A stretch of 64,000 nucleotides of DNA from the NCBI RefSeq assembly GCF_014201135.1, contig NZ_JACHDR010000001.1:1054001-1118000 (forward strand), given 5' to 3'. Within the stretch, counting starts at the first letter, position 1, and each line of letters begins with the position of its first letter. A program made the translations under genes and the position numbers. Under the pieces are notes generated by a model that searched no databases, was not told the DNA's origin, and worked only from the letters and a program-made list of their open reading frames with translations. Of this stretch, positions 2,452 to 39,292 are shown piece by piece. The stretch is from Neomicrococcus aestuarii (lineage in GTDB: Bacteria; Actinomycetota; Actinomycetes; Actinomycetales; Micrococcaceae).

Positions 2452-2478
2452 GGGATCCTCTTGAGTGCGAGACGTGTG

Positions 2479-2492: not shown

Positions 2493-2619
2493 GACGAGAG
2501 ATGCATTCTCTAGGAAACCACATTGAATTGCGGGTAGATACTTAACACTTGAAGTTGCGAAGTAATCTTTAACCAGCATTCCCGCTGAAATGCGTGTCAA
2601 CACAAGGGATCTCGTAACG

Positions 2620-3969: not shown

Positions 3970-3978
3970 ATTTTCCGG

Positions 3979-4001
3979 TACGACGACGCAGCTTAGGTTG
4001 C
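3979..4001 (+). repeat. TACGACGACGC-AGCT repeat abutting the purN stop
   Basis: Exact 11-mer followed by AGCTTAGGTTGC, the short version of the two-box element seen at 31478 and 31572. It fills the gap between the convergent MFS and purN genes and runs over the purN stop codon. Confidence 0.8.
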
Positions 4002-4559: not shown

Positions 4560-4631
4560 TCCACCGATCTTATGCTCTTTGCACCGGTGAGCGCCGCTTT
4601 CGCGACCCACGTGAAGTGCGTGTGCTCCCGA

Positions 4632-4637
4632 TAGAGT
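4632..4637 (+). promoter_or_regulatory. -10 box, leaderless start
   Basis: TAGAGT six bases before the ATG at 4644, with no Shine-Dalgarno sequence. Confidence 0.5.
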
Positions 4638-4643
4638 TACTGC

Positions 4644-5060
4644 ATGACTGCTACGCGCCCACCAGATTCCAAGCGTCCCGCGAGCACCGAGGAACTGTTG
4701 GCGAACGCCGCACGCTTACGCGGGACGGTCATGTTGGTCTTGGCCGCAAGCATTTTGACGCTGTTGCCCCTGCCGTGGAAGTTCTTGACGATCCCCGTGG
4801 GAATCTTGGCGATCATTTCGGGAATTCGCACCCTGTTGAAGAGCCGCCGTATTGAGGGCATGGGATTCGTGAACGCCACCATCGTCATCGCGGTGGTGGG
4901 TTGCCTAATGTTTACCGTCTCGGTGACGCTTCAGGGCATCTTTTTCCAGCCGACCATGGACTACCAGACGTGCGTCACGCAGTCCCTCACGAGCCGCTCA
5001 CTAGAACAGTGCGCGCGTGATTTCAACGATTCGCTGATGAACCAAGTGCTCGGACGTTAG
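4644..5060 (+). CDS. Small membrane protein, unknown function
   Basis: 138 residues. After a hydrophilic N-terminus (~28 residues) come three hydrophobic segments (about 29-47, 49-63 and 75-95), then a polar C-terminal tail with two cysteines (YQTCVTQ and LEQCARD) that would lie outside if the topology is N-in. I do not recognise a named family. It is transcribed divergently from purN, apparently from a leaderless promoter, and its stop overlaps that of the convergent DUF6350 gene by four bases. Confidence 0.75.
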   Translation: MTATRPPDSKRPASTEELLANAARLRGTVMLVLAASILTLLPLPWKFLTIPVGILAIISGIRTLLKSRRIEGMGFVNATIVIAVVGCLMFTVSVTLQGIFFQPTMDYQTCVTQSLTSRSLEQCARDFNDSLMNQVLGR

Positions 5061-6388: not shown

Positions 6389-6434
6389 GGTGCCATTCTT
6401 GGCGGGTGCTTTCGCTGAACGGCGCGGCCCATGA

Positions 6435-6440
6435 TAAGAC
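6435..6440 (+). promoter_or_regulatory. -10-like box before AEC gene
   Basis: TAAGAC six bases before the GTG at 6447; no ribosome site is present. It deviates from TANNNT at the last base. Confidence 0.35.
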
Positions 6441-6446
6441 CGATGG

Positions 6447-7421
6447 GTGGATATTTCGCTCTTACTGCGCGCGTTAGTCCCAACCGCGGCGCTGTTGGGG
6501 TTGGGATGGGCGTTGCGCAAACACCTGAACTTCAAGGATGCGTTCTGGGTGGAACTCGAACGGCTCACCTATTACTTCCTCCTCCCCGCGCTCTTCATCA
6601 GCAGCTTGGCGACGGCAAACCTGACAAAGATTCCTGCTTTCAGCATGGTGGGCGTCATCATCATTTCCTCTGTGCTGGGCGGCCTCTTGCTGTTGCCCTT
6701 CCGCACGCTTGCAACCGGGAACAACGGTCCCGCCTTCACCTCCGTGTATCAAGGCGCCGTTCGGTTCAATAACTACATCGGTCTGGTCCTTGCCACCGCG
6801 CTCTTCGGCGCGGATGGACTCGCGCTTGCCGCTCTGGCCAACGCCGCGCTCGTCCCCACCGTCAACATCACGTCCACTTTGGTGTTCGCTCGCTATGGCA
6901 GCACCGACGTGCGCGGTTGGGCGATCTTTCGAGCGATCTACACCAATCCTTTGGTGGTGGCGTGCTTTGTAGGGCTGGCTCTCAACTTGAGCGGGCTGTG
7001 GTTCAGCAATATCAATGACGACGCCGCTGCGGCCACTTCCACGATCGCCGCACCTTTCGTGGAGATCCTGAAAATCTTGGGACAAGCCGCTCTGCCGATC
7101 GGCCTGTTGTGCGTGGGTGCGGGACTGCGAGCTACGTCATTGCGGGGATTCGTTAAGCCGATGCTCTGGGCGAGCTCTTTCCGCTTCGTAATCATCCCAA
7201 CCCTCGCGCTAGCCCTGTGCCTCTGGGCTGGACTAAGGGGCCCGGCGGCCGCTGTCGTCATCTTGTTCCAATCGATCCCCACAGCTTCGAGCGCGTACGT
7301 GCTGTCGCGTCGTCTGGGAGGCGATTCCCCTCTCATGGCCGCCATCATCGCAACCCAAACGGCGTCGTCGTTCTTAACGATTCCCGCATGGATTGCTCTC
7401 ACCGCCATTTTTGTCCGCTAG
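6447..7421 (+). CDS. AEC (auxin efflux carrier) family transporter
   Basis: 324 residues with about ten hydrophobic segments in the two-half pattern of the AEC/BART superfamily. Typical blocks are ERLTYYFLLPALFISSLA near residue 37, an N-terminal half ending in NPLVVACFVGLALNLSG, and a second half with QAALPIGLLCVGAGL. Family members export or exchange small organic anions such as malate or malonate; the substrate here is unknown. The start is GTG with no Shine-Dalgarno sequence, apparently leaderless. The gene diverges from the DUF6350 gene. Confidence 0.88.
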   Translation: MDISLLLRALVPTAALLGLGWALRKHLNFKDAFWVELERLTYYFLLPALFISSLATANLTKIPAFSMVGVIIISSVLGGLLLLPFRTLATGNNGPAFTSVYQGAVRFNNYIGLVLATALFGADGLALAALANAALVPTVNITSTLVFARYGSTDVRGWAIFRAIYTNPLVVACFVGLALNLSGLWFSNINDDAAAATSTIAAPFVEILKILGQAALPIGLLCVGAGLRATSLRGFVKPMLWASSFRFVIIPTLALALCLWAGLRGPAAAVVILFQSIPTASSAYVLSRRLGGDSPLMAAIIATQTASSFLTIPAWIALTAIFVR

Positions 7422-7563
7422 CCGGCGCCCTCCCGCGCTCGCACTTCGTGGCATTCAGGACGCAAGACACGCACGAAACGATTTCACGAAAGTTCACCCG
7501 CGGTAAGTGTGGAATTAACTTTGAGGCAATAGTGCGGTCACCGGGACAGCGGAGGGTAAGAGA

Positions 7564-8742
7564 GTGAGAGTAGCTGTAGTAGCCGAGTCCTTCTTGCCGC
7601 ACATGAATGGCGTGACGAATTCCGTCATTCGCGTCCTTCGCCATTTGCGAAGCCGAGGTCACGAGGCGCTAGTCATCGCACCGGCGCAATCGTGGTCCGG
7701 GCCCTTGTGGGCGGCGGAATCAACTCCCGAGGAAGTCGAGGGTTTCCCGGTAGTCAATCTGCCAGCACTCCCGCTCAATGGCTACCCTAATGTCCGCGTT
7801 GCAGCCGGAACGGTAGCGCGCGTTCGTCGTATTCTCGCCGGCTTTAGCCCGGACGTCGTTCACGTGGCAAGCCCATTCGTACTCGGTTGGCGCGCTATTC
7901 AGGCCGCACAACAGCTCGGCTTGCCCACCATCTCCATCTACCAGACGGAAATCCCCGCCTATGCCGGCCGCTACGGCTTGCCCTGGCTTGAGGATGTCCT
8001 CTGGAACCACGTCAAACTCATGCACGAATCCTCCACCGTGAACCTCGTGCCGTCCTCCTACTCGATGAACCAGCTTCGGGAGCTTGGCATTCGCCGCGTT
8101 CATTACTGGCGCCGCGGTGTAGATCAAGAACAGTTCAACCCATCGCGTCGTTCCGAGGCCTTCCGGGCTCAGGCTGCTCCTAATGGCGAAAAGATCATCG
8201 GTTTCGTAGGCCGGTTGGCAGCCGAGAAGCAAGTTGCCGACCTCGCGGTCCTCGACAATCTTCCGGGCACCCGGTTGGTCATTGTGGGATCTGGACCGCT
8301 TAAGGATGAATTGCGCGCGAAGCTGCCCAACGCTTACTTCGCTGGATTCCTCGGCGGAAACGATCTCGGCGAGGCAGTGGCTTCCTTCGATCTCTTCGTA
8401 CACCCGGGCGAATCAGAGACGTTCTGCCAGACCATTCAAGAGGCCATGTCCGCGCGTGTGCCGGTGGTGGCGGTGGGCCGCGGAGGACCGCTGGATTTGG
8501 TGGATTCTTCCCGCACAGGTTGGCTCTATAAGCCTGGGGACCTCGCGGACTTGCGCTCGCGGGTTCAGGATTTGGTGTACGACGACGTCAAGCGGGAAGC
8601 GTTCGCCGCTGCGGCTTTGGAGAGTGTTGCGGGACGCACGTGGGAAGCGATCTGCGATCAGCTCATCGAGCATTACGAGCGGGCAATTCACGTGAAGTCT
8701 CGGCATCTCCACACCGAGGCCCTCTCCTGGATGGACCGCTAA
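7564..8742 (+). CDS. mgtA: GT4 glycosyltransferase, MgtA-like GDP-mannose-dependent alpha-mannosyltransferase
   Basis: 392 residues. The N-terminus MRVAVVAESFLPHMNGVTNSV is nearly diagnostic of mycobacterial and Micrococcus MgtA, which adds mannose to a lipid acceptor in lipomannan or dimannosyl-diacylglycerol synthesis. The GT-B second half shows GFVGRLAAEKQV (residue ~217) and the E-x7-E region HPGESETFCQTIQEAMSARVPV with the nucleotide-sugar glutamates. The start is GTG with GGAGGG nine bases upstream. The membrane association expected of the family is through surface patches; no membrane helix is seen. The acceptor is not determined by sequence. Confidence 0.88.
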   Translation: MRVAVVAESFLPHMNGVTNSVIRVLRHLRSRGHEALVIAPAQSWSGPLWAAESTPEEVEGFPVVNLPALPLNGYPNVRVAAGTVARVRRILAGFSPDVVHVASPFVLGWRAIQAAQQLGLPTISIYQTEIPAYAGRYGLPWLEDVLWNHVKLMHESSTVNLVPSSYSMNQLRELGIRRVHYWRRGVDQEQFNPSRRSEAFRAQAAPNGEKIIGFVGRLAAEKQVADLAVLDNLPGTRLVIVGSGPLKDELRAKLPNAYFAGFLGGNDLGEAVASFDLFVHPGESETFCQTIQEAMSARVPVVAVGRGGPLDLVDSSRTGWLYKPGDLADLRSRVQDLVYDDVKREAFAAAALESVAGRTWEAICDQLIEHYERAIHVKSRHLHTEALSWMDR

Positions 8743-8875
8743 CACCGCTCGAAGTCTGCGCGAGAGGTGTTGAAGTTCTTCTCAGTTGGCGTTCAGGAAA
8801 ATTTCAGTTTCGTTGCGTACGTTGTAAGTACCGGCTATTCCGGGAAGCACTATCCATCAACGAAAGGACTGGATC

Positions 8876-9070
8876 ATGGGACTCGGCGACAAGATTTCTA
8901 ACAAGGCAGAAGAGTTGTCCGGCAAGGCTAAGGAAGCCTTCGGCGACGCTACCAACAACGAGCGCCTGCAGGCCGAAGGCCAGGCAGATCAGGCATCGGC
9001 TGGCGTAAAGCAGGCTGGCGAGAACGTCAAGGACGCCGCCAAGGACGTCAAGGACGGCTTCTCCAAGTAA
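8876..9070 (+). CDS. CsbD family stress protein
   Basis: 64 residues, highly charged, Ala/Lys-rich and predicted helical, with the CsbD pattern of repeated K-x-EEL-x-GKAKE blocks. Family members are general-stress proteins of unknown mechanism. A clear AAAGGA ribosome site lies nine bases upstream of the ATG. It is a single gene with a strong hairpin terminator 70 bases past the stop. Confidence 0.93.
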   Translation: MGLGDKISNKAEELSGKAKEAFGDATNNERLQAEGQADQASAGVKQAGENVKDAAKDVKDGFSK

Positions 9071-9138
9071 GCGCTTCAACGCTTCTCGCGTGACGCATTC
9101 AGTTCGGCGGCATTTGTTGCCTCGTAGCTAGCGTCACT

Positions 9139-9185
9139 ATGCAGGTGGCCCCCGGTGAGCATCGCTCACCGGGGGCCACCTGCAT
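9139..9185. terminator. Long perfect hairpin terminator between csbD and the FMN reductase gene
   Basis: A 22-bp perfect stem (9139-9160 with 9164-9185), arm core CAGGTGGCCCCCGGTGAGC, three-base loop ATC. It lies between convergent genes and can serve both. Confidence 0.85.
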
Positions 9186-9252
9186 TAAGCCGTCGCAACC
9201 AGTAAACAGGTGCCACAACTTTCTGGCGACGTCGCCAAAGACTAAAAAGTGA

Positions 9253-9879
9253 CTACTTTGAAATGTTTGCCAGCAATTGCTCGAACGGCAATGAGGTCAT
9301 GGACGAACCCTGGCCAAAGTTCTCCTCAGCGCGATTGCGAGGAGCGCTACTAATGGCACTTGCCAGCTCCTTGCCGGCACGCTCGATGCGAGACATCAAC
9401 AGTCCTTCACCCTGACCATCGCCCCAATCTTCGGGTGCCGCGAAGACGCTCGTAGGCATCTGTTGCGTGCGCAGGTAGCTGAAGATTGGTCTCATGACGT
9501 AGTCGATCATGAGACTGTGGCGAGCCGACCCACCCGTGGCGCCCAGCAAGACCGGCATGCCTTCAAGGGGCTTGGGATCAAAAGTGTCAATGAAGGACTT
9601 GAAAAGCCCACTCACGGACGCCGTGTAGGTGGGGCTCACGAGCACTAGACCGTCCGCCTCAAGCACGGCGTCCTTCACTTCTTGAAGCGCCGGAGCAGCG
9701 AACCCGGACACCATGTTGTTTGCGATGTCCCCCGCGTAGTCGCGCAAGCTCACCATGCGAACCTCAGCATCAAAGCCTTGGGCCGATAGCGCACGTTCAG
9801 TGGCATGACCCAAGTGTTCGCCCAGCATGGTGGCAGTGGAAGGCACGCCCATGCCTCCGGAAACGACGACAATCTTCAT
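9253..9879 (-). CDS. NADPH-dependent FMN reductase, CE1759 type
   Basis: 208 residues with a flavodoxin-like fold: MKIVVVSGGMGVPSTA at the start, LVLVSPTYTASVSGLFKSFID near residue 80 (FMN phosphate/ring contacts) and LLGATGGSARHS near 115. Such enzymes reduce FMN with NADPH, supplying reduced flavin to monooxygenases or for ferric reduction. It stands alone. GAGAGG precedes the ATG, and an inverted repeat TTTGTAT/ATACAAA lies 22 bases upstream of the start, a likely operator. Physiological partners are unknown. Confidence 0.87.
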   Translation of the reverse strand: MKIVVVSGGMGVPSTATMLGEHLGHATERALSAQGFDAEVRMVSLRDYAGDIANNMVSGFAAPALQEVKDAVLEADGLVLVSPTYTASVSGLFKSFIDTFDPKPLEGMPVLLGATGGSARHSLMIDYVMRPIFSYLRTQQMPTSVFAAPEDWGDGQGEGLLMSRIERAGKELASAISSAPRNRAEENFGQGSSMTSLPFEQLLANISK

Positions 9880-9900
9880 CGCAGGCCTCTCTTCTCAAAA

Positions 9901-9924
9901 TTTGTATGCACTTGAATATACAAA
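9901..9924. promoter_or_regulatory. Inverted repeat upstream of FMN reductase gene
   Basis: TTTGTAT and ATACAAA separated by ten bases, the second arm 39 bases from the start codon. It resembles a dimeric repressor site (MarR or TetR size); the regulator is unknown. Confidence 0.5.
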
Positions 9925-9970
9925 CGATGAGTGCGGCTCATTCATTCCCTTCGGCCAGGAAACGTTAAAC

Positions 9971-10004
9971 AAGAATGGCGCCCCGAAAACGGGACGCCAT
10001 TCTT
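9971..10004 (-). terminator. Hairpin terminator of the rpf gene
   Basis: Arms AAGAATGGCGCCCCG and CGGGACGCCATTCTT, 14 of 15 pairs, loop AAAA, twelve bases past the rpf stop. Confidence 0.8.
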
Positions 10005-10015
10005 GGTCAACCTAT

Positions 10016-11375
<1,360 letters not shown>

Positions 11376-12149
11376 CTACGCGTCCTTGAGCTGAGCAATG
11401 TAGGAAATAGTGCGATCTAAAGCGCGCTCAAATTCCTCACCTGCGTGATTCTCGCGCAGCTTCGGCTCAAGTTCCTCAATAAAGGGGTATTCGCTCAAAT
11501 CGGAGCCGCGGGCGTCGTCGTGTGCTCCACAAGAGCCGGATTCAGGACCGACGTCAGAAATATCAACATCCGCCCCGGCTAGCTCCAGGAGCAAGTGACC
11601 CAAGAGGAAACTGGAATAGGCGCGGTACGCGCGAACAGTGGCTTCTTCCGAGAATCCGCTCTCGCGCAAAGCTTGCAAGAAACGATTGATCCACGTGAGA
11701 CTTCGCATGGGTGGGCGGATCCACGGAGCTTCCGGTGGCCGGGTAGCAATCACGGGGAAAACTTGAGGGTGCTCTTGAGCGACCTTGCGGAAACCGTGGG
11801 ACAAGCGACGCACAAAGCTTTCCCACCCCTCGGTGGCTTCTTTGTGAACTTCCGGGTTGGATTCAAGATCTTCGAGAACAAGTTCAACGATGCCGTCTAT
11901 GAGCACATCGCGCGACGGAACATACCTATAAAGGGACATCGCTTGAACACCGAGCCGAGCTGCCAGATTGCGCATGGAGAGCTGGTGGATTGATTCATCC
12001 TCAATCAGCTCGGCGCCGGTCCTGAGTATTAATCCAAGATCCAGCCGGCCACGGCTTGATTTGCGACGACTCGCAAGATCGGTTGTTTCGAAATCCTGCC
12101 CCTCTGCCGCGGTTCTGACTGCTTCAGACGGGGGCTTATTCATCCCCAT
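11376..12149 (-). CDS. TetR family transcriptional regulator (TetR_C-type ligand domain)
   Basis: 257 residues. The helix-turn-helix lies at about residues 60-85 (LSMRNLAARLGVQAMSLYRYVPSRD), followed by a long C-terminal ligand domain. A 45-residue polar N-terminal tail precedes the HTH. The start at 12149 has AGAGAGG upstream. It diverges from the yihY-like gene, which it might control together with itself. The effector is unknown. A copy of the dispersed repeat (HDDA in frame) lies in its C-terminal half at 11512. Confidence 0.88.
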   Translation of the reverse strand: MGMNKPPSEAVRTAAEGQDFETTDLASRRKSSRGRLDLGLILRTGAELIEDESIHQLSMRNLAARLGVQAMSLYRYVPSRDVLIDGIVELVLEDLESNPEVHKEATEGWESFVRRLSHGFRKVAQEHPQVFPVIATRPPEAPWIRPPMRSLTWINRFLQALRESGFSEEATVRAYRAYSSFLLGHLLLELAGADVDISDVGPESGSCGAHDDARGSDLSEYPFIEELEPKLRENHAGEEFERALDRTISYIAQLKDA

Positions 12150-12373
12150 TGACCTCTCTCTTTCCCCTCCATGTTGAAGAATATCAACACAAGTGCATGA
12201 AAGTTTGTGCTTTGGAACGAATAAGTCGGTAGGCTCGCTCACCTTATACTGTAAGTTCATCCACGTGTGAGTGACAAGCATTCGCCCGTTCCAATGAAGG
12301 GCCCGCGCCGCAACAATCACATTTAGACTTACAACGAAGACCTGCTGTGAAAGTTCACCCAACGGAGGCCGTC

Positions 12374-13591
12374 ATGACCGTTTCGCCACTTAGTGGAACC
12401 CGTTCAGCTATAGACACGATCGAATCGAACGATCCCGAATTCCGCGAGATTGTGGAAAATCCACCGCGGCTTAAAGGCAAAGTTCTCAAGTACTCGTTAG
12501 GCAGGGCGCTTCGTGAATTCACGCGAGACGGCTGCTTGGACATGGCAGCGGGCCTTACGTACCGCGCTGTCTTTGCAATCTTCCCTGGCCTCTTGGCCTT
12601 GGTCTCTCTCCTTGGCGTGATCGGTCAGGCTGAAACCACCACCCAGTTCATGGTGGATCTCATCAACCAAATGGGTTCCAAGGAAATGGCAAAGACCCTC
12701 GAACAGCCCATCATGCAGCTCGCATCCTCGAGCGGAGCTGGACTTGGTCTCTTGATTGGTGTGCTCGGCGGCATTTGGACGGCCTCAAACTACGTGGTGG
12801 CCTTCAGCAAGTCTCTCAACACCATCTTTGAGGTAGACGAGGGTCGCCCCATCTGGTCCTTGCGTGCTGTTACCTACACCGTCACTCTCGTGATTGTGTT
12901 GCTCGCTGTCTTGGCCATTGCACTTCTCATCCTGTCAGGCCCGGTAGCTACCGGCTTGGGTGCTGTGATTGGGCTTGGACCGCAGGCCCTAGCGGTGTGG
13001 AACATCGCCAAGTGGCCGTTGCTTGTCCTGATTGCGATCTTCATGATCTCCACGCTGTATTACTGGACGCCGAACGCTCGTCAGTCCAAGTACCGCATTC
13101 TTTCTTTCGGCGCTTTCATCGCCTTGTTGGTGATTGGTCTGGCGACGTTGGGCTTCTCCGTGTACCTCGCCAACTTCAGCAACTACAACGCGACGTACGG
13201 CTCCATTGGTGGCGTGATCGTCTTCCTGCTGTGGCTGTGGATCATGAACGCCGTGTTGCTCTTTGGTGCTGAAGTCGACGCCGAGCTCGAGCGCGGCCGC
13301 CAGCTACAGTCCGGAATCGACGCCGAAGATACCCTCAAGCTTCCGGTGCGTGGTTTCAAGGCAACCTTGAAGAAGGAAGAAAAGTACATCAAGGATGTGC
13401 AGGAGGCGCAGGATTTGCGCCACGAGTACAACCCGGAAAAGCACAAGGATCCCGAAGCCGAAAGCGAGAAGCGGATGTGGACCGTGCTGGCCGGCGGCTT
13501 GGCCGTTTTCCTCGGAGTGGGGCTGGTTCGCAAGATCCGCGGCGACGGACCGCTTTTTGACAACGTTGACGGCGAAGACGCCAAGTCTTAG
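12374..13591 (+). CDS. YihY/virulence factor BrkB family membrane protein
   Basis: 405 residues. Residues ~50-300 carry six or seven membrane helices with the family motifs DMAAGLTYRAVFAIFPGLLAL, YYWTPNARQ, and GGVIVFLLWLWIMNAVLLFGAEVDAE. A charged cytoplasmic tail of about 75 residues and a final hydrophobic segment follow. The family was once misnamed ribonuclease BN; its real function is not established. The ATG at 12374 has CGGAGG six bases upstream, better than the upstream in-frame GTG. Confidence 0.9.
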   Translation: MTVSPLSGTRSAIDTIESNDPEFREIVENPPRLKGKVLKYSLGRALREFTRDGCLDMAAGLTYRAVFAIFPGLLALVSLLGVIGQAETTTQFMVDLINQMGSKEMAKTLEQPIMQLASSSGAGLGLLIGVLGGIWTASNYVVAFSKSLNTIFEVDEGRPIWSLRAVTYTVTLVIVLLAVLAIALLILSGPVATGLGAVIGLGPQALAVWNIAKWPLLVLIAIFMISTLYYWTPNARQSKYRILSFGAFIALLVIGLATLGFSVYLANFSNYNATYGSIGGVIVFLLWLWIMNAVLLFGAEVDAELERGRQLQSGIDAEDTLKLPVRGFKATLKKEEKYIKDVQEAQDLRHEYNPEKHKDPEAESEKRMWTVLAGGLAVFLGVGLVRKIRGDGPLFDNVDGEDAKS

Positions 13592-14088: not shown

Positions 14089-14143
14089 AAACGCAGAAAG
14101 CGGCACCTTGAGTGTGAAAACTCAGGTGCCGCTTTCTGCGTTT
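14089..14143. terminator. Bidirectional terminator between aroQ and the SIP gene
   Basis: A long stem: AAACGCAGAAAGCGGCACCT pairs with AGGTGCCGCTTTCTGCGTTT, with a further GAGT/ACTC pair inside. It lies between convergent genes. Confidence 0.9.
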
Positions 14144-15554: not shown

Positions 15555-16652
15555 TTAAAGCGAGCTTGCGTCGTCGTGCGCGCTCACTTGACTGTCCGCC
15601 TGTGCCGCAGGAAGCAAACCGAGCTTCTCAAGCTTCGCAGCGATTTTCGCGCCGTCTGGCTCATAGATCCACGGCGTTCCCGGCGTGGATCCCATCATTT
15701 CTTCCGAACGACCACCGGCGAGCACGGCTTCAGACGGCGTGAGCTGTCGAATGACAATGGCCCGCACGTGATCCGGGTAGCGGCGCGCAAACTCGGCGTA
15801 AATCTCCGGGTCATGCTGCCCATCATCGCCAATCAACAACCATTTGACGTCCGGGAACTCGTCCGCGAGGCGCCGCAACTGATTAACCTTGTGTTGCATT
15901 CCCGAACGGAACCAGCGGCCCTCAGTTGGCCCCCAGTCTGTCAACAAGAGCGGCCCCTTGGGGTAGAGATTGCGCTTGAGGAAGCGCTGCAACGTCTGCG
16001 CTACGTTCCAAGCGCCGGTGGACAAGTAGATCACTGGGGCGTGGACGTTGTGCTGGACCAGACGCTCGAGCATCACGGCCATGCCGGGGGTTGGAACGCG
16101 CGCGTGCTCATCCAGCACGAAGGAGTTCCAGGCCGCCAACAGCGGACGTGGCAGCGCGGTCACCACCACGGTATCGTCAATATCGGAGACGATGCCAAAG
16201 GTTTGCTCTTGGTCCACCACGTACACATGCGCGTGGGATGGTTCGCCGCCATCAGCCAATAGCTCGATGGTGTGCCAGCCGGCCGGAAGCTTCGCGCGGA
16301 TCCGAATATCCACCACGCCGCCACGGTCTGCGTCTACATAGAATTCGCTGCCCGCCACTCGGACGCGTACCTCGGCGTAGGGAACAGGCGCGGACGTAAA
16401 GTTACGCCAGCCTCGGACGCCATCCGTGACAACGTTCGGCAACGGGAGCCCATTCTCGAAGGCTTCTTCACGCGCCATCACCACTCGAGCCATCACGCGG
16501 ACCCACGAATCGGATAAACCGTACCCGCGGAATGCAAAAACGGTTTGCACCCAACCGCGTTCTTCGGCACGGCGCAAACGGAACGCATGCCAGCCGTCTT
16601 CGAGCTTGATTGCCGGGTTGTCCCAGAAATCTGACTTCTTCAACAATGCCAT
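15555..16652 (-). CDS. APP1-type phosphatidate phosphatase domain protein (DUF2183)
   Basis: 365 residues. The HAD-type motif SDIDDTVVVT is at 156-165, STGAWN follows near 220 and LLIGDDGQHDPEIYAEF near 283, the arrangement of the APP1/DUF2183 phosphatase domain. The first 150 residues form a beta-rich domain. APP1 in yeast dephosphorylates phosphatidate; the bacterial role is not established. The C-terminus ends HDDASSL, encoded by a copy of the dispersed repeat, probably an addition to the core protein. Confidence 0.87.
   Translation of the reverse strand: MALLKKSDFWDNPAIKLEDGWHAFRLRRAEERGWVQTVFAFRGYGLSDSWVRVMARVVMAREEAFENGLPLPNVVTDGVRGWRNFTSAPVPYAEVRVRVAGSEFYVDADRGGVVDIRIRAKLPAGWHTIELLADGGEPSHAHVYVVDQEQTFGIVSDIDDTVVVTALPRPLLAAWNSFVLDEHARVPTPGMAVMLERLVQHNVHAPVIYLSTGAWNVAQTLQRFLKRNLYPKGPLLLTDWGPTEGRWFRSGMQHKVNQLRRLADEFPDVKWLLIGDDGQHDPEIYAEFARRYPDHVRAIVIRQLTPSEAVLAGGRSEEMMGSTPGTPWIYEPDGAKIAAKLEKLGLLPAAQADSQVSAHDDASSL
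15568..15578 (-). repeat. TACGACGACGC repeat, one mismatch, at a coding end
   Basis: On the minus strand CACGACGACGCAAGCTC. In frame it encodes His-Asp-Asp-Ala-Ser-Ser near the stop of the DUF2183 gene. Confidence 0.7.
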
Positions 16653-17290: not shown

Positions 17291-18229
17291 ATGGCTGTGG
17301 ACCCTCATTCTTCATCTGAAACCATCTCTTCGACCGCTCTTCGCGCTACGGCGGTCGAAGCAGCGCTTGCGGCCGGACCTGCGCTACGAGCAGCATTCCG
17401 TGGTGGTGTGAGCGCGCGCGAGAAGAGCAATGCTCACGATCTCGTGACGGACGTGGATGTGGCTACCGAACGCACTCTTGCGGACATCTTGCGGACGGCC
17501 TACCCGGAGTCCACGTTTTGGGGCGAAGAATCCACGCAGGGCGCGCGCCCCACTGAGTCGGGGAACGCATCCGAAAAGAGCGCGCTCGAATGGATCGTGG
17601 ATCCCATTGACGGCACCTCCAACTTCGTTCACGGCGTAGCCCTGTTCTCGATTTCGGTCGCCGCCACTCTCAACCAGCAACTCGTAGCGGGCGTGGTCTA
17701 TGACCCCATCGCCGACCTACTGTTTTCCGCCGATGAACACGGCGCCTATCTCAACGGGGAACCGTTGCCCTCCCGCGCACAGACTCCACGCGCCGACGCG
17801 GCACCCGCGCAAGGCAGCGGCGTCGTACTGGAACCGCGCAGCGAGCGCTCCTTAAGCCTCTTTACGGACTACCCGTCGGCCGAGACGATCGCCGAGGACG
17901 GGATGCTCGCTCTGGAAGCCTTTGGGGATTTGGTGACCACGTACGCCACCGTGCGCCGTCCCGTGAGTACCGCGCAGTCGCTGGTGCATTTAGCGGCGGG
18001 CTGGTCCGATGTCTGGTTTGGGTTCGGACTAAAGGCGTGGGACGTTGCCGCGGGCGCGTTCATCATTCAGCAGGCCGGCGGGCGCTTCGAAGCCATCCGG
18101 CCTGCGGATTCTTCCCAGTACGACGACGCACACCCGCTCACAGCCCCGGCCCACTACGCGCTGGGGCCCGGCGTGGAGTCCGAGACCGCGCGTGCGTGGG
18201 TTGCCCGCATCCTGGAACAGCGGCGGTAA
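17291..18229 (+). CDS. Inositol monophosphatase family protein
   Basis: 312 residues. The metal and substrate motifs are all present: DLVTDVDVATE (~51-61), GEES near 77, WIVDPIDGTSNFVHG near 103-117, and KAWDVAAGAFIIQQAGG near 251. The family hydrolyses inositol-1-phosphate, or in actinobacteria also histidinol phosphate or PAP. It is longer than typical, with an insert near residue 165 and a C-terminal part carrying a repeat-derived QYDDA stretch. Apparently transcribed as a leaderless single gene. Confidence 0.9.
   Translation: MAVDPHSSSETISSTALRATAVEAALAAGPALRAAFRGGVSAREKSNAHDLVTDVDVATERTLADILRTAYPESTFWGEESTQGARPTESGNASEKSALEWIVDPIDGTSNFVHGVALFSISVAATLNQQLVAGVVYDPIADLLFSADEHGAYLNGEPLPSRAQTPRADAAPAQGSGVVLEPRSERSLSLFTDYPSAETIAEDGMLALEAFGDLVTTYATVRRPVSTAQSLVHLAAGWSDVWFGFGLKAWDVAAGAFIIQQAGGRFEAIRPADSSQYDDAHPLTAPAHYALGPGVESETARAWVARILEQRR
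18119..18129 (+). repeat. TACGACGACGC repeat, exact, inside a gene
   Basis: Encodes Tyr-Asp-Asp-Ala in the C-terminal part of the inositol monophosphatase family protein. Confidence 0.6.
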
Positions 18230-21723: not shown

Positions 21724-21757
21724 CGTGGGTGAGCTCCGTCGTCGTTCTGGGCAGGCG

Positions 21758-22762
21758 TTATTCAGCGGAAGTACCGGAAGCGGACTCGGCCGCAACCCGC
21801 GCCTGATCCGCGAACAGCGAGATCAGGTCATAAGCAACGTGAGAGCCGGCCACGCCGGTGATCTCAGCATGATCGTACGCCGGTGCCACCTCAACGAGGT
21901 CCGCGCCCACCAGGTTCATACCGCGCAGGCCGCGGATGATCTCGAGCAGCTCGCGCGAGGTGATGCCGCCGGCCTCAGGCGTTCCGGTGCCGGGAGCGTG
22001 GGCGGGATCGAGCACGTCGATATCGATGGAAATGTAGAGCGGACGGTTGCCGATGCGCTGGCGCAACTTGTCCACGACCTCGGCCACGCCTTGGTAGTAG
22101 ACGTCCGAGCTGGTGATGATGCCGAAGCCGAAGCGGCGGTCATCTTCGAGGTCGCGCTTGCCGTAGAGCGGTCCGCGCGTTCCGACGTGAGAGATGGCTT
22201 CCGTGTCCAGGATGCCTTCCTCGACCGCGCGACGGAACGGGGTGCCGTGAGTGTATTCGGCGCCGAAGTAGGTGTCCCACGTGTCCAGGTGAGCGTCAAA
22301 GTGAAGCATCGCCACCGGTTCGCCCGCGCGTTCGCTCGCGGCACGCAGCAGCGGCAGCGCGATGGTGTGGTCGCCACCGAGGGTCAAGAGCTTGGAGCCG
22401 TCGGCGGTGAGATCCAGCGCGTTCTGCTGAATGGTTTCGATGGCCTCGTTGATGTTGAACGGGTTCACTGCCATGTCGCCGGCGTCGGCAACCTGAATGT
22501 GTTCGAACGGGCTGAGGTCAACGGCAGGGTTGTAGGGGCGGATCAGGCGCGAGGATTCGCGGATGTGGTTGGCGCCGAAGCGCGCGCCGGGGCGGTAGGA
22601 GACGCCGGTGTCAAAGGGGACGCCCACGATCTTGAGGTCCGCTTGCTCTACTTGATCCAGTCGTGGCAAGCGCGCGTAGGTGGCGGCGCCGGCGTAGCGA
22701 GGGATTTCAGCGGCGTTGATGGGTCCAAGCTTGCCGTTCGCTTCGATGCGAATTTCCTTCAT
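21758..22762 (-). CDS. Agmatinase/guanidinobutyrase-type ureohydrolase
   Basis: 334 residues. The binuclear manganese motifs are intact: GGDHT at 129-133, [10 protein letters not shown] at 154-163 and [22 protein letters not shown] near 235-256. These enzymes split guanidino compounds into urea and an amine. The locus (symporter, XRE-cupin regulator, ThDP enzyme) fits 4-guanidinobutyrate or a similar acid better than polyamine synthesis, because no arginine decarboxylase or other polyamine gene is present. It is the first gene of the minus-strand operon, 35 bases before the ThDP gene. Confidence 0.9.
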
Positions 22763-22887: not shown

Positions 22888-23487
22888 CTAGTACGACGGC
22901 GCAGCTCGGCCCGAGTGGGCGGCCGCAGGGACCAGGGTCCACAAGACCACGGCGCGCTCGCCGGAGGGGTTGCGCCACGAGTGCGGCTCGCGACCGGGGT
23001 AGGTCACGGTGTCGCCGGCGCTGAGTTCGATGGTGTCGCGGGAGAAACGGATGACGAACTCGCCTTCCACGACGTGCAGGACTTCGACTTCACAGTCCAC
23101 ACTGTAAAGCTCCGCTTCGCCCTCACCATACGGCTCGATATCGGCGCGAATCACCTGAACGCGCCGTTCCCCATGGCCGGTCAGGAGGCGCTCGTCAATG
23201 CCTTGGCCGCCGAGGTTGATCTTGCGGGCTTCGCTGCGTCGGACCACCTTGAGTGGCGGCTCCTCAAACAGGGATCCCACGTCAATGGAGAGCGCTTTGC
23301 ACAGATTCAGGAGCGTTGCCACGGACGGCGAGGTGAGATCCCGCTCGACGCGTGAGAGGAAGCCTTTCGTGAGTCCCGTAGCTTCCGCCACTTGGTCCAT
23401 GGTGAGCCTGCTCTGCTTGCGCGCGGCGCGCAATCGCGCACCAATGGCAAGGGATTCACTCCCCGCCTCGAGCTCAATTGCCTTCAT
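22888..23487 (-). CDS. XRE family regulator with cupin sensor domain (PuuR-like)
   Basis: 199 residues. The N-terminal helix-turn-helix (about 16-70: LRAARKQSRLTMDQVAEATGLTKGFLSRVERDLTSPSVATLLNLCKAL, in two blocks) is followed by a C-terminal cupin (~110-190, VLHVVEGEFVIRFS and PHSWRNPSGERAVVLW). Such regulators control amine and amino-acid catabolism. It lies between the ureohydrolase operon and the divergent sodium symporter, so it probably regulates both. GGAGAGG supports the ATG at 23487. The last residues, AAPSY, come from a dispersed-repeat copy. Confidence 0.9.
   Translation of the reverse strand: MKAIELEAGSESLAIGARLRAARKQSRLTMDQVAEATGLTKGFLSRVERDLTSPSVATLLNLCKALSIDVGSLFEEPPLKVVRRSEARKINLGGQGIDERLLTGHGERRVQVIRADIEPYGEGEAELYSVDCEVEVLHVVEGEFVIRFSRDTIELSAGDTVTYPGREPHSWRNPSGERAVVLWTLVPAAAHSGRAAPSY
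22892..22902 (+). repeat. TACGACGACGC repeat, one mismatch, at a stop codon
   Basis: TACGACGGCGC followed by AGCTC. On the gene strand it encodes Ala-Ala-Pro-Ser-Tyr immediately before the TAG of the XRE-cupin gene. Confidence 0.7.
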
Positions 23488-26550: not shown

Positions 26551-27759
26551 TCAGCCTTTTTGAGAGCTAGCCTCTGCATCGTGAGCGCGGTCATTCAATC
26601 GGATGACCGCGCTCACGGCGTCTTCCACCGAATCCACCAATTCAACGAGCGGCTCCATGGAGCGCTCTCGAGACAGTGACTGCAAGAGCTGCCACGCGGG
26701 CAATTGCTCCGTCCAATACTTCTTGCCCACCAGCACCATGGGCGCTACGTTCGCCACAGACCCGTAGTAGTTCTCACACGCGTCTTGGAAGATCTCCTGC
26801 ACCGTGCCCGCAGCTCCCGGCATGAACACCACTCCCCCACGCGTCCGATCCAACAAGACAGCCTCCCGGACCGAGTTCGCGAAGTACTTCGCGATGTCCG
26901 TGGCAAAGAGATTCGGCGGCTCGTGCCCGTAAAACCACGTCGGAATGCCAATCGAACGCACACCGTTCGGGAATTCCTCCAGCACCTCCCACGCCGCCCG
27001 CGCCCATACGGAAACTGAGGGCCTAAAGGAGGGCGCACCTGCGAGAGTGTCCAGCGCGCGCTGAGCTGCGTCGTCGTCCTCCCGAGAAAGGTACGCACCC
27101 AGGTTGGAGGCCTCCATCGCGCCCGGGCCGCCGCCGGTAGCCACGGTGAATCCGGCCTGCGCCAACAGCCGCCCCATGCGCGCGGTCTGCGCGTAGACGT
27201 CGCTGCCGCGCTCGGCGCCGTGCCCGCCCATGATTCCCACGATCTTCCGCGGATCCCACCGCTTGAGCGTCTGATTCAGCGCGGTTCCGATCGAATAATC
27301 GTGCAGAGCGGCCGCAAGCGTCGCATCCAAGCTCGCCGTGCTCGGCGCCAAAGATGTGTGCGCCCACGCGTAAATTTGCGCATCCGGAACCTGCTCGTAC
27401 GGCGTTTCCTGCACGCCCGCGAACAATTCGCGCGGGGAATACAGCTCCCCGCGATACGCATCAAACGGGACGCCCGGGAGAATCGGGAAAATCAGGGCGC
27501 CGCGAGCGCGCAACCACGGCTCCAGTCCGGACGGCAGCGTGCACCCCAAAAACACCGCGCCCGACGGCTTGAGCAGCTTCACTTGCGGGCCGCGCGCGCT
27601 CACATCCACGGACTGCACGTGCCAGCCGGCCATGGAGCCGCCGCCGGGCTTGCCCTGCTCGGCCGCCCGCAACGCAATTGCTACGCGCCGATCAAAGTCC
27701 TCGAGGGAATCAATATCCACGGTCCTTGGCAACGGGTGCGCAATGGTGAGTTGATTCAT
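26551..27759 (-). CDS. LOG family (Rossmann-fold nucleotide-binding) protein
   Basis: 402 residues. The C-terminal half carries the LOG pattern GIMGGHGAERGSDVY, VATGGGPGAMEASNLGAYL and the PGAAGTVQEIFQDACENYY block, close to the PGGxGTxxE motif of cytokinin-activating LOG phosphoribohydrolases. The first ~180 residues are an extra domain found in larger relatives. The role is uncertain. TATGCT six bases before the ATG suggests a leaderless mRNA. The gene's end contains a perfect hairpin that can terminate the convergent VIT gene. Confidence 0.83.
   Translation of the reverse strand: MNQLTIAHPLPRTVDIDSLEDFDRRVAIALRAAEQGKPGGGSMAGWHVQSVDVSARGPQVKLLKPSGAVFLGCTLPSGLEPWLRARGALIFPILPGVPFDAYRGELYSPRELFAGVQETPYEQVPDAQIYAWAHTSLAPSTASLDATLAAALHDYSIGTALNQTLKRWDPRKIVGIMGGHGAERGSDVYAQTARMGRLLAQAGFTVATGGGPGAMEASNLGAYLSREDDDAAQRALDTLAGAPSFRPSVSVWARAAWEVLEEFPNGVRSIGIPTWFYGHEPPNLFATDIAKYFANSVREAVLLDRTRGGVVFMPGAAGTVQEIFQDACENYYGSVANVAPMVLVGKKYWTEQLPAWQLLQSLSRERSMEPLVELVDSVEDAVSAVIRLNDRAHDAEASSQKG
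26581..26616. terminator. Perfect hairpin inside the LOG coding end
   Basis: GTGAGCGCGGTCAT pairs with ATGACCGCGCTCAC, 14 bp, eight-base loop. It sits 33 bases past the VIT stop but within the last codons of the convergent LOG gene. Confidence 0.75.
27068..27078 (-). repeat. TACGACGACGC repeat, one mismatch, inside a gene
   Basis: On the minus strand GACGACGACGCAGCTC, including the AGCT extension, encoding Asp-Asp-Asp-Ala-Ala in the LOG protein. Confidence 0.55.
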
Positions 27760-27765
27760 AGTGCC

Positions 27766-27771
27766 AGCATA
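27766..27771 (-). promoter_or_regulatory. -10 box, leaderless LOG mRNA
   Basis: TATGCT six bases before the ATG at 27759 on the minus strand. Confidence 0.5.
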
Positions 27772-27864
27772 CGATTGGCGCCAAACCGGTACAGAAACGT
27801 CATCCTGTGTCCACAGCACATGAACCGAGTTTGAAGAACCGCGTAAAGGTGAAACGATCAAAGG

Positions 27865-30800
27865 ATGAATGCTGAGTCTTACCCCCTCGTGGATGCCCGA
27901 AGAATCCTCAAGGTTGTGGGTGGACCAACGTTCGCGCGCGGCAAGCAATACTCCATGGAGCACCGCGTTGACTCCATCACCTTCACGGATAACATCCTCC
28001 AGGCCACGGTCCAAGGTTCAGCGAAGAACCCGTACCGCACCACCGTCAAACTCAAGGGTGCGCCGGAGGATCTCGATATTGAGGCGAACTCTTGCTCGTG
28101 CCCCGTGGGTTTTGATTGCAAGCACGTTGCCGCGGCGCTGATTGAATCCAATACGCGCCACCTGCAAAAGCGCAACGAACTGCAGTTGGTGCAGTCCCGC
28201 GAAGAGCCGTCCTGGCAAGAGGGCTTCGAACGCATGCTGGGCATTACGTTCCAGAACTCCACGCAGCGCACGGATCCGGAGGCCATTCAGCCACTCGCAT
28301 TGCAGTTTGAGCTCGTGGATGCGCAGGCCGTGAACTATTCGGGGTGGATGCCGCGCAGCACCAGTCAGCCTTCGCGCAGCCGCTACCGCCTAGCCGTCCG
28401 CCCCATGGTCAAGAACGGCGCCGGCAAATGGGTGCGCTCCAACCTGCGCTGGAACACCATTTCTTTCAAGACGTACGGGCTCACCCTGGATGAGGAACAG
28501 CACCGCTGGTTCTGCCAGTTCGTGCCGCTCTACCGCGCCAACGGGCAGCTGTACTTCGGCAATGACAACGACTGGATCTTCCTCGACGAGTTCTCCTCGC
28601 CACTCTTCTGGCCGCTCTTGCACGAGGCCTCCTCGCTGGGCATCGAGCTCATCACCAGCTCGAACGATGTTGTGGTGGAGATGGGGCCGCGCGCTCGCGT
28701 TGAGGTGGGCATTTCCCAGGACGACGACGCAGGCTTGCGTCTTGCTCCCGCGCTTCACTTCGATGGGGTTGAGGAGCCGCTAGTGCTCACGGATGACCGT
28801 GCCGTGGGCAGCATCGGAACGTTCGGCGTGTACTTCGAGGATCCCGAGCATCACCGCATTGTGCTCAGCCCGGTTCATGGGCGTCTCAACGCCTCCGAGC
28901 TCGCGTTGGTGCGTCAGCCTGACGAGCTGCGAATTCCGTCCGAAGCCACCCAGGAGTTCTTGGGAACCGGTTACCCGCGGATGCGCCGACGCGTGCGCGT
29001 TCAACCGCTGGATGCTTCCATTGAGCTGCCGGAGATCGCCCCGCCGGTGTTCATTGTGGGCGTGACCTTCTTAGGTGAAGACGCCACCGCGTTGGACTGG
29101 TGGTTTGAGTACAACAACGTGCATGCCTCCAAGGTGCCGGATGATCTGCGCGATCCCGAGGTGGAGCAGGACATCAAGGCGCAGGTGCGGTTGCTGCTTG
29201 CGGATTCTCCGTCGGTACTTGAGAGCTTCGACGCTCTCGCGCCAAAGACCCTCGAGGGCTTGGACACGGTTGATTTTGTGCGGCGCGTTTTGCCGAAGCT
29301 CGAAGCTTTCGAGGGCGTGCGCGTCACGTTCAAGGGCACCCGACCGCAATACCGCGAACTCACGGAAGCTCCAGAGTTCGCCGTCAACGTGGTGGAAACC
29401 GAACGCCGCGACTGGTTTGACCTTGGCTTGCTCATCAAGCTGGGCGATCGCGAAATTCCGCTCGCCGACATCCTGCGCGCGCTCAGCCGCGGTCAGACCC
29501 GGCTGTTGATGTCTGACAAGACCTACTTCAGCCTTGAGCACCCGCTCTTTGACAAGCTCAAGGAGCTCGTCGCCGAAGCTCGCAGCCTGCAGGACAAGCC
29601 GAACGAACTCAAGATCACGCGGTACCAAGCGTCCTTGTGGGACGAACTCGACGAGCTTGCCACTCAGTCCGAGGCACCAGATTCTTGGAACGCTCACGTC
29701 TCAGGGCTACTTGCGCTGTCCGAGAGCGACGAGATCGAGGTTCCTGCAAACCTTAACGCCGAGCTTCGCCCGTACCAGCGCGAAGGCTTCAATTGGCTCG
29801 CGAGCCTCTGGAACGGCGGACTGGGCGGCGTTCTGGCCGATGACATGGGCCTCGGTAAGACCGTTCAGGCTCTCGCGCTGATCCTGCACGCTCACGCGTC
29901 CATGAAGGACAAGAAGCTTCCGTTCCTTGTAGTGGCTCCTACCTCGGTGGTCCCCAACTGGGAGGCCGAAGCCAAACGCTTCGCCCCAGACCTGAAGGTG
30001 GCCACCATCATGGACACCCGCGCGAAATCCAAAGAATCCATTGCGGATATCGCGGCAGCGAACGACGTCGTCGTCACCTCCTACACCCTCTTCCGACTGG
30101 ATGCGCCTTCCTACCAAGCCGTGGAATGGGGCGCGCTGCTGTTGGACGAAGCGCAGTTCGTCAAGAACAAGGCCACCAAGGCCCACCACGCAGCCCGCGA
30201 TCTGAACGCTCACATGAAGCTCGCGATCACCGGTACGCCGATGGAAAACAACCTCATGGAGCTGTGGGCGTTGCTCACGCTGACCTCCCCTGGACTGTTC
30301 CCGTCTGCCGTGAAGTTCAACGAGAATTACGCGCGACCCATCGCGAACTCGGGCGATCAGAAGAGCCTGGAACGCTTGCGCAAACGCGTGCGCCCGTTCA
30401 TGCTGCGCCGCACCAAAGAAGCGGTGGTCAGCGACCTTCCGCCGAAGCAGGAACAGGTTCTGCACGTCGAACTCGCGCCGAAGCACCGCAAGCTCTATGA
30501 CACGCACTTGCAGCGTGAGCGCCAGAAGATCTTGCGCCTCGTTGAGGACATGGACCGCAACCGCTTCACCATTTTCCAGTCCCTCACGGTGCTGCGCATG
30601 ATGGCGTTGGATGCTGCGCTCATTGATCAGGAGTACGAGGGCGTGCCGTCCGCCAAGCTAGATCTTTTGCTGGAGCAGCTCGAGGAAATCGTCCAGGACG
30701 GCCACCGCGCGCTGATCTTCAGCCAGTTCACGTCCTTCCTGCACCGCGCGGAGGATCGCATCAAGGCGGCCGGCATCGAGTACGCCTACCTTGATGGCAG

Positions 30801-31155
30801 CACGCGAAACCGTGGCGAGGTCATCAACTCATTCAAGGAGGGTGGCGCACCGGTGTTCCTCATCAGCCTCAAGGCTGGTGGATTCGGCTTGAACCTCACG
30901 GAAGCCGACTACGTCTTCCTCCTGGATCCGTGGTGGAACCCTGCTGCCGAAGAGCAGGCAGTGGACCGTACTCACCGCATCGGTCAGCTGCGTTCGGTGA
31001 TGGTCTATCGCATGGTCGCCCAGGACACCATCGAGGAGAAGGTGGTTGCTCTGCAGGACGCGAAGCGCGAACTCATCTCCTCGGTGATGGACGGCGGGGA
31101 CGGCTTCGCGTCGCGCCTCACAGCCGACGACATCCGTCAGCTACTCGCCGAGTAG
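27865..31155 (+). CDS. SWIM zinc finger SNF2-family ATPase
   Basis: 1096 residues. A SWIM zinc finger near the N-terminus (CSCPVGFDCKHV, 77-88) is followed by a long middle region of unknown fold (~120-620) and a SNF2 motor. The motor shows GVLADDMGLGKTVQ near 658, LLLDEAQFVKN near 758, TGTPMENNLMELW, and a helicase C half with SLKAGGFGLNLTEADYVFLLDPWWNP and RTHRIGQ. These are double-stranded DNA translocases that remodel bound proteins; the bacterial role is poorly known. AAAGG precedes the ATG at 27865 but is very close. Confidence 0.92.
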   Translation: MNAESYPLVDARRILKVVGGPTFARGKQYSMEHRVDSITFTDNILQATVQGSAKNPYRTTVKLKGAPEDLDIEANSCSCPVGFDCKHVAAALIESNTRHLQKRNELQLVQSREEPSWQEGFERMLGITFQNSTQRTDPEAIQPLALQFELVDAQAVNYSGWMPRSTSQPSRSRYRLAVRPMVKNGAGKWVRSNLRWNTISFKTYGLTLDEEQHRWFCQFVPLYRANGQLYFGNDNDWIFLDEFSSPLFWPLLHEASSLGIELITSSNDVVVEMGPRARVEVGISQDDDAGLRLAPALHFDGVEEPLVLTDDRAVGSIGTFGVYFEDPEHHRIVLSPVHGRLNASELALVRQPDELRIPSEATQEFLGTGYPRMRRRVRVQPLDASIELPEIAPPVFIVGVTFLGEDATALDWWFEYNNVHASKVPDDLRDPEVEQDIKAQVRLLLADSPSVLESFDALAPKTLEGLDTVDFVRRVLPKLEAFEGVRVTFKGTRPQYRELTEAPEFAVNVVETERRDWFDLGLLIKLGDREIPLADILRALSRGQTRLLMSDKTYFSLEHPLFDKLKELVAEARSLQDKPNELKITRYQASLWDELDELATQSEAPDSWNAHVSGLLALSESDEIEVPANLNAELRPYQREGFNWLASLWNGGLGGVLADDMGLGKTVQALALILHAHASMKDKKLPFLVVAPTSVVPNWEAEAKRFAPDLKVATIMDTRAKSKESIADIAAANDVVVTSYTLFRLDAPSYQAVEWGALLLDEAQFVKNKATKAHHAARDLNAHMKLAITGTPMENNLMELWALLTLTSPGLFPSAVKFNENYARPIANSGDQKSLERLRKRVRPFMLRRTKEAVVSDLPPKQEQVLHVELAPKHRKLYDTHLQRERQKILRLVEDMDRNRFTIFQSLTVLRMMALDAALIDQEYEGVPSAKLDLLLEQLEEIVQDGHRALIFSQFTSFLHRAEDRIKAAGIEYAYLDGSTRNRGEVINSFKEGGAPVFLISLKAGGFGLNLTEADYVFLLDPWWNPAAEEQAVDRTHRIGQLRSVMVYRMVAQDTIEEKVVALQDAKRELISSVMDGGDGFASRLTADDIRQLLAE
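28730..28740 (+). repeat. TACGACGACGC repeat, one mismatch, inside a gene
   Basis: GACGACGACGC encoding Asp-Asp-Asp-Ala in the middle region of the SNF2 protein. It may be coincidental. Confidence 0.35.
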
Positions 31156-31518: not shown

Positions 31519-31571
31519 AAAAACGGCGCGATTTTCGATACGAGTCCGCAACACCAGCTACATCTAGTCAG

Positions 31572-31612
31572 TACGACGACGCTGGGCCCGGTCCGAAAGT
31601 AGCTAAAGTTGC
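31572..31612 (+). repeat. 41-bp two-box element, copy 2
   Basis: Box A TACGACGACGC, then GGGCCCGGTCCG, then box B GTAGCTAAAGTTGC. Same spacing as copy 1, 94 bases downstream of it. Confidence 0.8.
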
Positions 31613-33860: not shown

Positions 33861-34053
33861 GTTTGTGTCCTTCTACGTCGAAGTCTGCTGACTCGGTTTT
33901 TAGGATGGGACGGACGAGTAGACGCCCGCGCCTCAACAAGACTTTAGTCCCGCCAAGAGGCATACACCCAAAGACTATCGGTCAAGGTGACCAAGCACAC
34001 AGTTCTACAGTTCGTAGAGATCGCGGCTGATGCGCTACCTTATTTTCCTTAAG

Positions 34054-34064
34054 TACGACGACGC
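34054..34064 (+). repeat. TACGACGACGC-AGCT repeat, exact, intergenic
   Basis: TACGACGACGCAGCTC, 57 bases downstream of the pcrA stop in the gap between pcrA and sucC. Confidence 0.75.
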
Positions 34065-34120
34065 AGCTCACCAAGTGCCGCAGATCCCGGAAATACTCGG
34101 CTTCAGCGGCTAGTTAGTGG

Positions 34121-38960: not shown

Positions 38961-39292
38961 AAGTCGCCCCGCTCGCGATAATGCCGCAGCACGCCTTCAG
39001 CCCCGGTGTACAGAATCATGGTGCACAGCACCAGAAACATCAGAAAGAAGGGCTCCTCGAGGGGCATCTGTGGGGCGATATCGATCCCCAGCATCGCCTC
39101 CGAGGTTCCGCGAATGAAGATCCCACCTGCGATTCCGGCGGCATCCCACAACAAGAGGAACACCGTTCCCGCCACGGCCACCAGCGCCGCGCTCGCAGCA
39201 TCCCGCCAAAAGAACAACCGGAACCGGTAGTCGATCAACAGCATGGACGTCATCCCGACTAGCAGAGCCCCCAGATACGCAAAGTGACTCAC
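38957..39292 (-). CDS. crtYe: CrtYe, C50 carotenoid epsilon-cyclase subunit
   Basis: 111 residues with three hydrophobic helices, the lycopene-cyclase-domain size. The block APQMPLEEPFFLMFLVLCTMI near residue 73 contains the Pro-x-Glu-Glu motif typical of these subunits. It acts with the CrtYf half encoded downstream to cyclise flavuxanthin-type C50 carotenoids. Start and stop overlap both neighbours (ATGA). Whether the cyclisation is epsilon or gamma cannot be read from sequence alone. Confidence 0.87.
   Translation of the reverse strand: MSHFAYLGALLVGMTSMLLIDYRFRLFFWRDAASAALVAVAGTVFLLLWDAAGIAGGIFIRGTSEAMLGIDIAPQMPLEEPFFLMFLVLCTMILYTGAEGVLRHYRERGDL

Follow-up and report, generated by a model that had tools for sequence, protein, structure and literature searches.

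Sequence-specific DNA uptake is known only from two Gram-negative families, the Neisseriaceae and the Pasteurellaceae, according to the excerpted parts of one published account (PMC12616744). Uptake sequences are described there as occurring in hundreds or thousands of copies, often as inverted repeats that act as terminators, and as forming dialects that keep a constant inner core, with weak downstream segments in the Pasteurellaceae type (PMC12616744). Among actinobacteria, Micrococcus luteus undergoes natural transformation with comEA, comEC and Flp pili, and the excerpts of that study mention no uptake sequence (PMC6370729). A screen in Veillonella, likewise available as an excerpt, found no sequence of at least 10 bases that was present 100 times (PMC5397411). 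Our own literature searches on uptake sequences in Actinobacteria, Micrococcus and Gram-positive bacteria returned no title reporting an actinobacterial case, and when TACGACGACGCAG and its complement were sought as text in publications, one herpesvirus paper was the only match.

Here we analyzed a repeat in the chromosome of Neomicrococcus aestuarii, a 16-base word, AGTACGACGACGCAGC, with the near-invariant core ACGACG-N-CG. The whole stretch of DNA under study (64 kb, hereafter the window) contains 18 matches to the 12-mer ACGACGACGCAG with at most one mismatch compared with 0.75 expected, a number that was as high in none of 100 shuffles, and this 12-mer is the most over-represented one in the sampled host genome (51 versus 0.62 expected). 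Searches of the entire host genome (~2.9 Mb, two contigs) with at most one mismatch retrieved 273 matches to AGTACGACGACGCAGC (133 versus 140 by strand) and 331 to the 15-mer GTACGACGACGCAGC (163 forward, 168 reverse), compared with 0 and 0 for the reversed 15-mer. A 464-kb sample of host DNA contained 11, 44 and 47 copies of AGTACGACGACGCAGC with 0, 1 and 2 mismatches (permuted words, 0, 0.07 and 0.4), exact copies being a minority (11 of 102). Positions 4-9 and 11-12 of the core were 98-100% constant even when three mismatches were allowed anywhere, and positions 3, 10 and 14 were variable. Examination of the surroundings from -23 to +52 revealed no strong similarity outside the core beyond weak preferences (a T-rich run from -4 to -1, a T at both 17 and 22, and a weakly C/T-rich stretch at 34-36), which were alike in coding and non-coding copies; one 15-kb sister stretch with three sites (L079, overlapping L060) is counted twice in this flank sample, as it is in the k-mer and sister-alignment density samples. 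At about one copy per 4.6 kb (up to two mismatches, host and sister stretches), the word is less dense than the uptake sequences of Neisseria or Haemophilus.

Being short, present in many copies, constant in its inner core and found in inverted pairs, the word resembles the DUS of the Neisseriaceae as excerpted (PMC12616744), from which it differs in its unrelated sequence, its actinobacterial host, its greater length (16 bases plus weak flanks) and the lack of a known ComP. It resembles the USS of the Pasteurellaceae in combining a core with weak distant segments, the host copies being both coding and intergenic, and it differs in its unrelated sequence, in having weak segments on both sides and in the kind of pilus and envelope of its host. 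The core, ACGACGNCG, is neither the CTG core of the DUS nor the GCGG core of the USS in the words printed in that excerpt (PMC12616744).

The word is restricted to one genus and shared with a close relative, the one congener compared. In this sister species GTACGACGACGCAGC yielded 119 + 93 = 212 matches (reversed control, 0 and 1). None of the 247 further genomes sampled from the order contained more than 7 matches to AGTACGACGACGCAGC, compared with the host total given above, and in a scan of 197 genomes of the family, host and sister included, the other 195 had at most 27 matches to GTACGACGACGCAGC, most of them a handful. Among 84,980 genomes, a collection that may omit the host and its near kin, a 19-base pattern matched three stretches from other species, and it also occurred in four viral contigs, once in each. 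Raised counts were seen in two genera of the same family, g6 and g21. The fetched matches from g6 mostly end in GCCGC (16 of 21), as expected of high-GC coding DNA; of nine from g21, only four end in GCCGC and three in GCAGC. The mild excess in g21, of 67-81 matches per genome at up to two mismatches in G021, G048 and G091 (reversed control, 2-7), may reflect coding DNA or else a related but weaker signal. In a k-mer scan that covered 120 kb per genus in seven other genera, ACGACGG-like leading 10-mers were 3- to 7-fold above expectation; for the two leading 10-mers of the host the excess was 24- to 42-fold, and in the sister it was 12- to 21-fold. Z-scores reached 12.3 in G044 versus 12.6 in the sister sample, and a few words in G043 exceeded expectation ~20-fold or more. 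Since some z-scores from other genera equal those of the sister, the k-mer scan alone does not set the genus apart, whereas the word counts do. The sister also contains a palindromic 12-mer, GTCTGCGCAGAC, with 8 occurrences over both strands (four places) in 120 kb (L051-L056) versus 0.04 expected.

The initial annotation of the window had proposed that five unrelated proteins end in three different readings of one DNA word, and this was borne out, the tails being as described (Table 1). The complement reads A-S/P-S-Y or runs into a stop codon, the motif strand reads Y/H-D-D-A, and the motif strand in a shifted frame reads R-R-R-S-S. For four of the five tails the alignment with the sister species extends to the final residue, and the sister carries a version of the word there, its DUF4303 protein continuing beyond the word; the tail of the CrtI-like oxidase is the only one with no sister copy. 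Outside the genus, the tail of the XRE regulator, HSGRAAPSY, occurred in none of 22 orthologues from other genera, most of which end a few residues after VPAAS, and HDDASSL of the phosphatase was not shown by any of 22 other-genus orthologues, three of whose tails were seen incompletely. Because orthologues from other genera lack these tails, the C-terminal extensions of both proteins look genus-specific, with the word as a part of them. The initial annotation had named conservation in distant orthologues as what would refute it; the tails are kept in the congener and absent from other genera. It had also asked whether homology stops at the repeat boundary; in both proteins homology to other genera ends several residues before the word.

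Table 1. Copies of the 16-base word, proteins ending in it and other repeats in the 64-kb window (gene calls are from our own codon-usage script; starts are approximate and at least ORF 26551-28014 was missed by it).
Feature	Position	Strand	Mismatches	Remarks
DUF4303 protein	340-945	-		ends EPASS, stop; word at 339-354; Pfam support
APP1/DUF2183 phosphatase	15555-16652	-		ends HDDASSL, stop; word at 15565-15580; Pfam APP1_cat, which we take to be the former DUF2183
XRE-cupin regulator	22888-23487	-		ends RAAPSY, stop; word at 22890-22905; Pfam HTH and cupin
CrtI-like oxidase	39289-41007	-		ends QYDDAGAAT, stop; word at 39302-39317; Pfam amine-oxidase fold
Small membrane protein	63391-63651	+		ends RRRSSATAAMER, stop; word at 63609-63624; no Pfam match
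Word copy	339-354	+	3	writes ASS and stop codon of DUF4303 protein
Word copy	3977-3992	+	1	convergent gap; genes end at 3969 and 3993
Word copy	15565-15580	-	4	core kept (mismatches to 16-mer); writes HDDAS near phosphatase end
Word copy	17814-17829	-	2	within + strand gene; missing in sister
Word copy	18117-18132	+	2	in gene; no sister copy at 3-mismatch rule
Word copy	21733-21748	-	2	just downstream of gene 21758-22762(-); sister has same 16 bases
Word copy (focal)	22890-22905	+	1	G at tolerant position 10; complement AAPSY adjoins XRE-cupin stop codon; sister copy in same place differs at position 10 only
Word copy	27065-27080	-	1	in ORF 26551-28014(-); one base different in sister
Word copy	28718-28733	+	2	in ORF 27865-31155(+); no sister copy at 3-mismatch rule
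Word copy	31570-31585	+	2	intergenic; no copy in sister interval
Word copy	34052-34067	+	0	intergenic; sister exact too, flanks 55% identical
Word copy	39302-39317	-	1	writes QYDDAG near CrtI-like oxidase end; missing in sister, tail differs
Word copy	48639-48654	-	0	intergenic
Word copy	52005-52020	+	2	opposite strand of gene 50387-52240(-); aligned ungapped to g21 orthologue
Word copy	62449-62464	-	1	in gene 62343-62795(-); sister identical
Word copy	63609-63624	+	1	writes RRRSS in small membrane protein
Inverted repeat	9139-9185			perfect, 22 bases, short loop, terminator-like
Inverted repeat	14089-14143			perfect, 20 bases, short loop, terminator-like
Tandem repeat	59094-59213			60-base unit, two copies 83% alike

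Given its properties, we propose that the repeat is a genus-wide analogue of a DNA uptake sequence, a reading to which we assign a probability of roughly one half. The host genome encodes comEA, an intact comEC and dprA, as well as two Tad clusters that include an ATPase and TadE-like pilins. Competence in M. luteus likewise involves ComEA, ComEC and Flp/Tad pili in the excerpts of that study (PMC6370729). Since such genes are common and not markers of the genus (comEC in 10, dprA in 11 and type II/IV secretion ATPases in all of 14 control genomes), they are permissive evidence only.

A comparison with the sister species showed that most anchored copies are inherited in place. Anchors were available for 44 of 100 host sites (56 had none), and for 34 of these 44 the sister has a copy in the same place and orientation, compared with 3.45% for a random interval (sister match and its null both at up to three mismatches); the remaining 10 have no sister copy. 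Among intergenic anchored copies, 11 of 13 have one. Two of the positionally conserved sites fall in a block of L033 (~1600-13500, corresponding to ~301.6-313.5 kb of contig C1 of the host, G000), a collinear segment of ~11 kb that is mostly 95-98% identical to the sister, compared with an average of ~78% for long host-sister alignments, which suggests recent homologous exchange between the two species by some route. The block carries housekeeping genes, including, by eye, one dxr-like and one site-2 protease-like gene. The second host contig, C2 (61 kb, L090-L092), is plasmid-like, with stretches of L091 that match plasmids of Arthrobacter and Glutamicibacter at 98% and 93% identity, and the 60 kb of it that were sampled contain no copy of the word versus 12.9 expected. 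C2 has a repeat family of its own around ACTCTGTTAGTA. No depletion of the word was seen in chromosomal islands, the density in chromosomal DNA with no sister alignment being 1.76 versus 1.99 per 10 kb.

Genome-wide spread, a near-invariant core, positional conservation and absence from C2 would fit equally well if the word were the binding site of an intracellular chromosome protein, with a role in the nucleoid, condensation, recombination or repair and not in uptake. This is the main rival explanation, and we consider it unlikely. The word has no marked strand imbalance in any sampled stretch, unlike polar motifs such as Chi and KOPS. Nor is a single unit palindromic, unlike most binding sites of dimers. 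Moreover, close pairs of copies are inverted far more often than direct (13 versus 2, p 0.007), and this excess and the weak flank preferences are closer to what is seen in uptake sequences. An identical pattern could, however, arise from any other protein of the chromosome whose site is not a palindrome.

The alignments also bear on whether the word descends from an old REP- or MITE-like mobile repeat that spread in the ancestor of the genus and is now decaying in place. Positional inheritance, the occasional hairpin pairs and the genus-specific XRE tail agree with such a history, and REP elements and REPINs with their RAYT are likewise dispersed intergenic repeats with some hairpin pairs; unlike them, single copies of the word are not palindromic and two-thirds lie in genes. 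A decaying element is expected to decay uniformly, whereas eight positions of the word hardly change and positions 10 and 14 do so freely. Among the 11 intergenic copies that could be aligned, identity was 100% over those eight core bases, compared with 63% for the flanks and 45% for positions 10 and 14, and in 23 aligned coding copies the core was 99.5% identical compared with 76%. Judged from these alignments, the pattern is one of conservation of a DNA site and not of decay of a dispersed element. Between -23 and +52, no strong similarity was seen beyond the core and the weak preferences. For 57 of 100 host sites, orthologous DNA was either not fetched or not aligned, and three more sites lay at alignment edges; the other 40 aligned with the sister ungapped over 16 bases in 34 cases and with gaps in six. 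For the 10 anchored copies with no counterpart in the sister, six lie within alignments in which no clean insertion was seen by eye, and four are unaligned. When in-gene copies were compared with other genera, 13 rows of at least 45% identity comprised four ungapped alignments, four with a gap within 8 residues and five that did not span the site, which may give a weak indication of the origin of these copies. A search of the host genome for a Y1 transposase of the REP/IS200 type (PF01797, E 0.001) gave no match. We therefore regard an old mobile repeat as improbable. The initial annotation had favoured a younger form of it, a mobile element that landed at gene ends and was absorbed; this is disfavoured by the ungapped, conserved sister copies, including four of the five tails, by the site-specific variation and by the missing Y1 transposase.

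To place the copies relative to genes, we used 544 kb of host and 675 kb of sister DNA (1.22 Mb), accepting up to two mismatches with an intact core and excluding the duplicate sister stretch from placement and pair counts. Of the resulting 231 copies (118 host, 113 sister), gene bodies contained 131, the first and the last 60 coding bases 13 each, and intergenic DNA 72, with two at stretch edges; gene ends, where the initial annotation had the repeat landing, are thus not a favoured location. No special attraction to C-termini was found, the last 60 coding bases showing no significant enrichment (1.44-fold, p 0.23). Intergenic density was 3.6-fold higher (p 4e-16), with convergent gaps the richest, and 37 of 1088 genes had a copy within 20 bases of the stop codon compared with 11.5 expected, an enrichment that fits the intergenic DNA behind stop codons. 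These observations, together with the strong folding of six chosen inverted pairs (z -4.9 to -8.2), one of them followed by a T run, are what a transcription terminator or mRNA 3'-end element would predict. The majority of copies, however, are single and not paired, and two single copies in the window did not fold above shuffles (z +1.4 and +1.6). Furthermore, 157 of 229 classified copies lie inside genes and 72 between them, and with respect to tandem genes the copies point both ways (19 in the same orientation, 12 in the opposite one). As an explanation of the word, such an element is therefore very unlikely. A protein-level signal or codon-usage artefact producing YDDA-type tails is scarcely credible: YDDA is the commonest in-gene frame (49 of 105 in-gene sites, up to three mismatches) and the g6 matches tend to end in GCCGC, yet the word is read in several frames and on both strands, enrichment and core conservation are strongest outside genes, and the conservation of intergenic copies refutes it.

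The initial annotation was right to doubt protein-level selection: translation uses the word in more than one frame, and its non-coding core is kept while the flanks drift, so that the constraint appears to act on DNA and not on protein. If the repeat is an uptake-sequence analogue, AGTACGACGACGCAGC would be recognized, through the essential core ACGACGNCG and helper bases, by a protein at the surface or associated with a pilus, and this binding would favour the import of self-DNA by way of Tad/Flp pili, ComEA and ComEC. Imported word-bearing fragments would return by recombination to the locus they came from; near-matches that arose by chance would thereby be drawn to the consensus and kept where the local sequence tolerates them, that is, in intergenic DNA, in protein tails under loose constraint and in gene bodies where the frame is bearable. 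Inverted pairs would double as hairpins, at least one of them terminator-looking. Such molecular drive would accumulate the word in tolerant DNA, including protein tails, and would thus create C-termini in several frames; on this view the unusual tails probably arose as a side effect of the uptake tag. Our inferences are that the species is competent and has a receptor, that uptake rises when the word is present and that the resulting drive is what maintains the word.

The properties observed here are abundance, restriction to a lineage, a near-invariant core, balanced strands, positional conservation, an excess of inverted pairs and the presence of uptake genes; on this comparison the repeat matches most of the printed traits of uptake sequences and appears to fit an analogue of them better than the other explanations weighed. 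Speaking against an analogue are the comparatively low density, the minority of exact copies, the 10 of 44 anchored copies that the sister lacks, the undepleted chromosomal DNA with no sister alignment, the excess in g21 and the lean of in-gene copies to the strand of their gene (61 versus 42). The word is possibly the first candidate uptake-sequence analogue in an actinobacterium. Tentatively, and somewhat short of even odds, it may represent a third independent invention of sequence-specific self-DNA uptake, the first in an actinobacterium, with the word perhaps read by a component of a Tad/Flp pilus and not of a type IVa pilus, and with translated copies of it having given unrelated proteins new tails in several frames. 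A strong actinobacterial candidate with Tad pili would make both the frequency with which such specificity originates and its receptor directly testable, and it would illustrate that a DNA-level signal can shape the ends of proteins without selection at the protein level.
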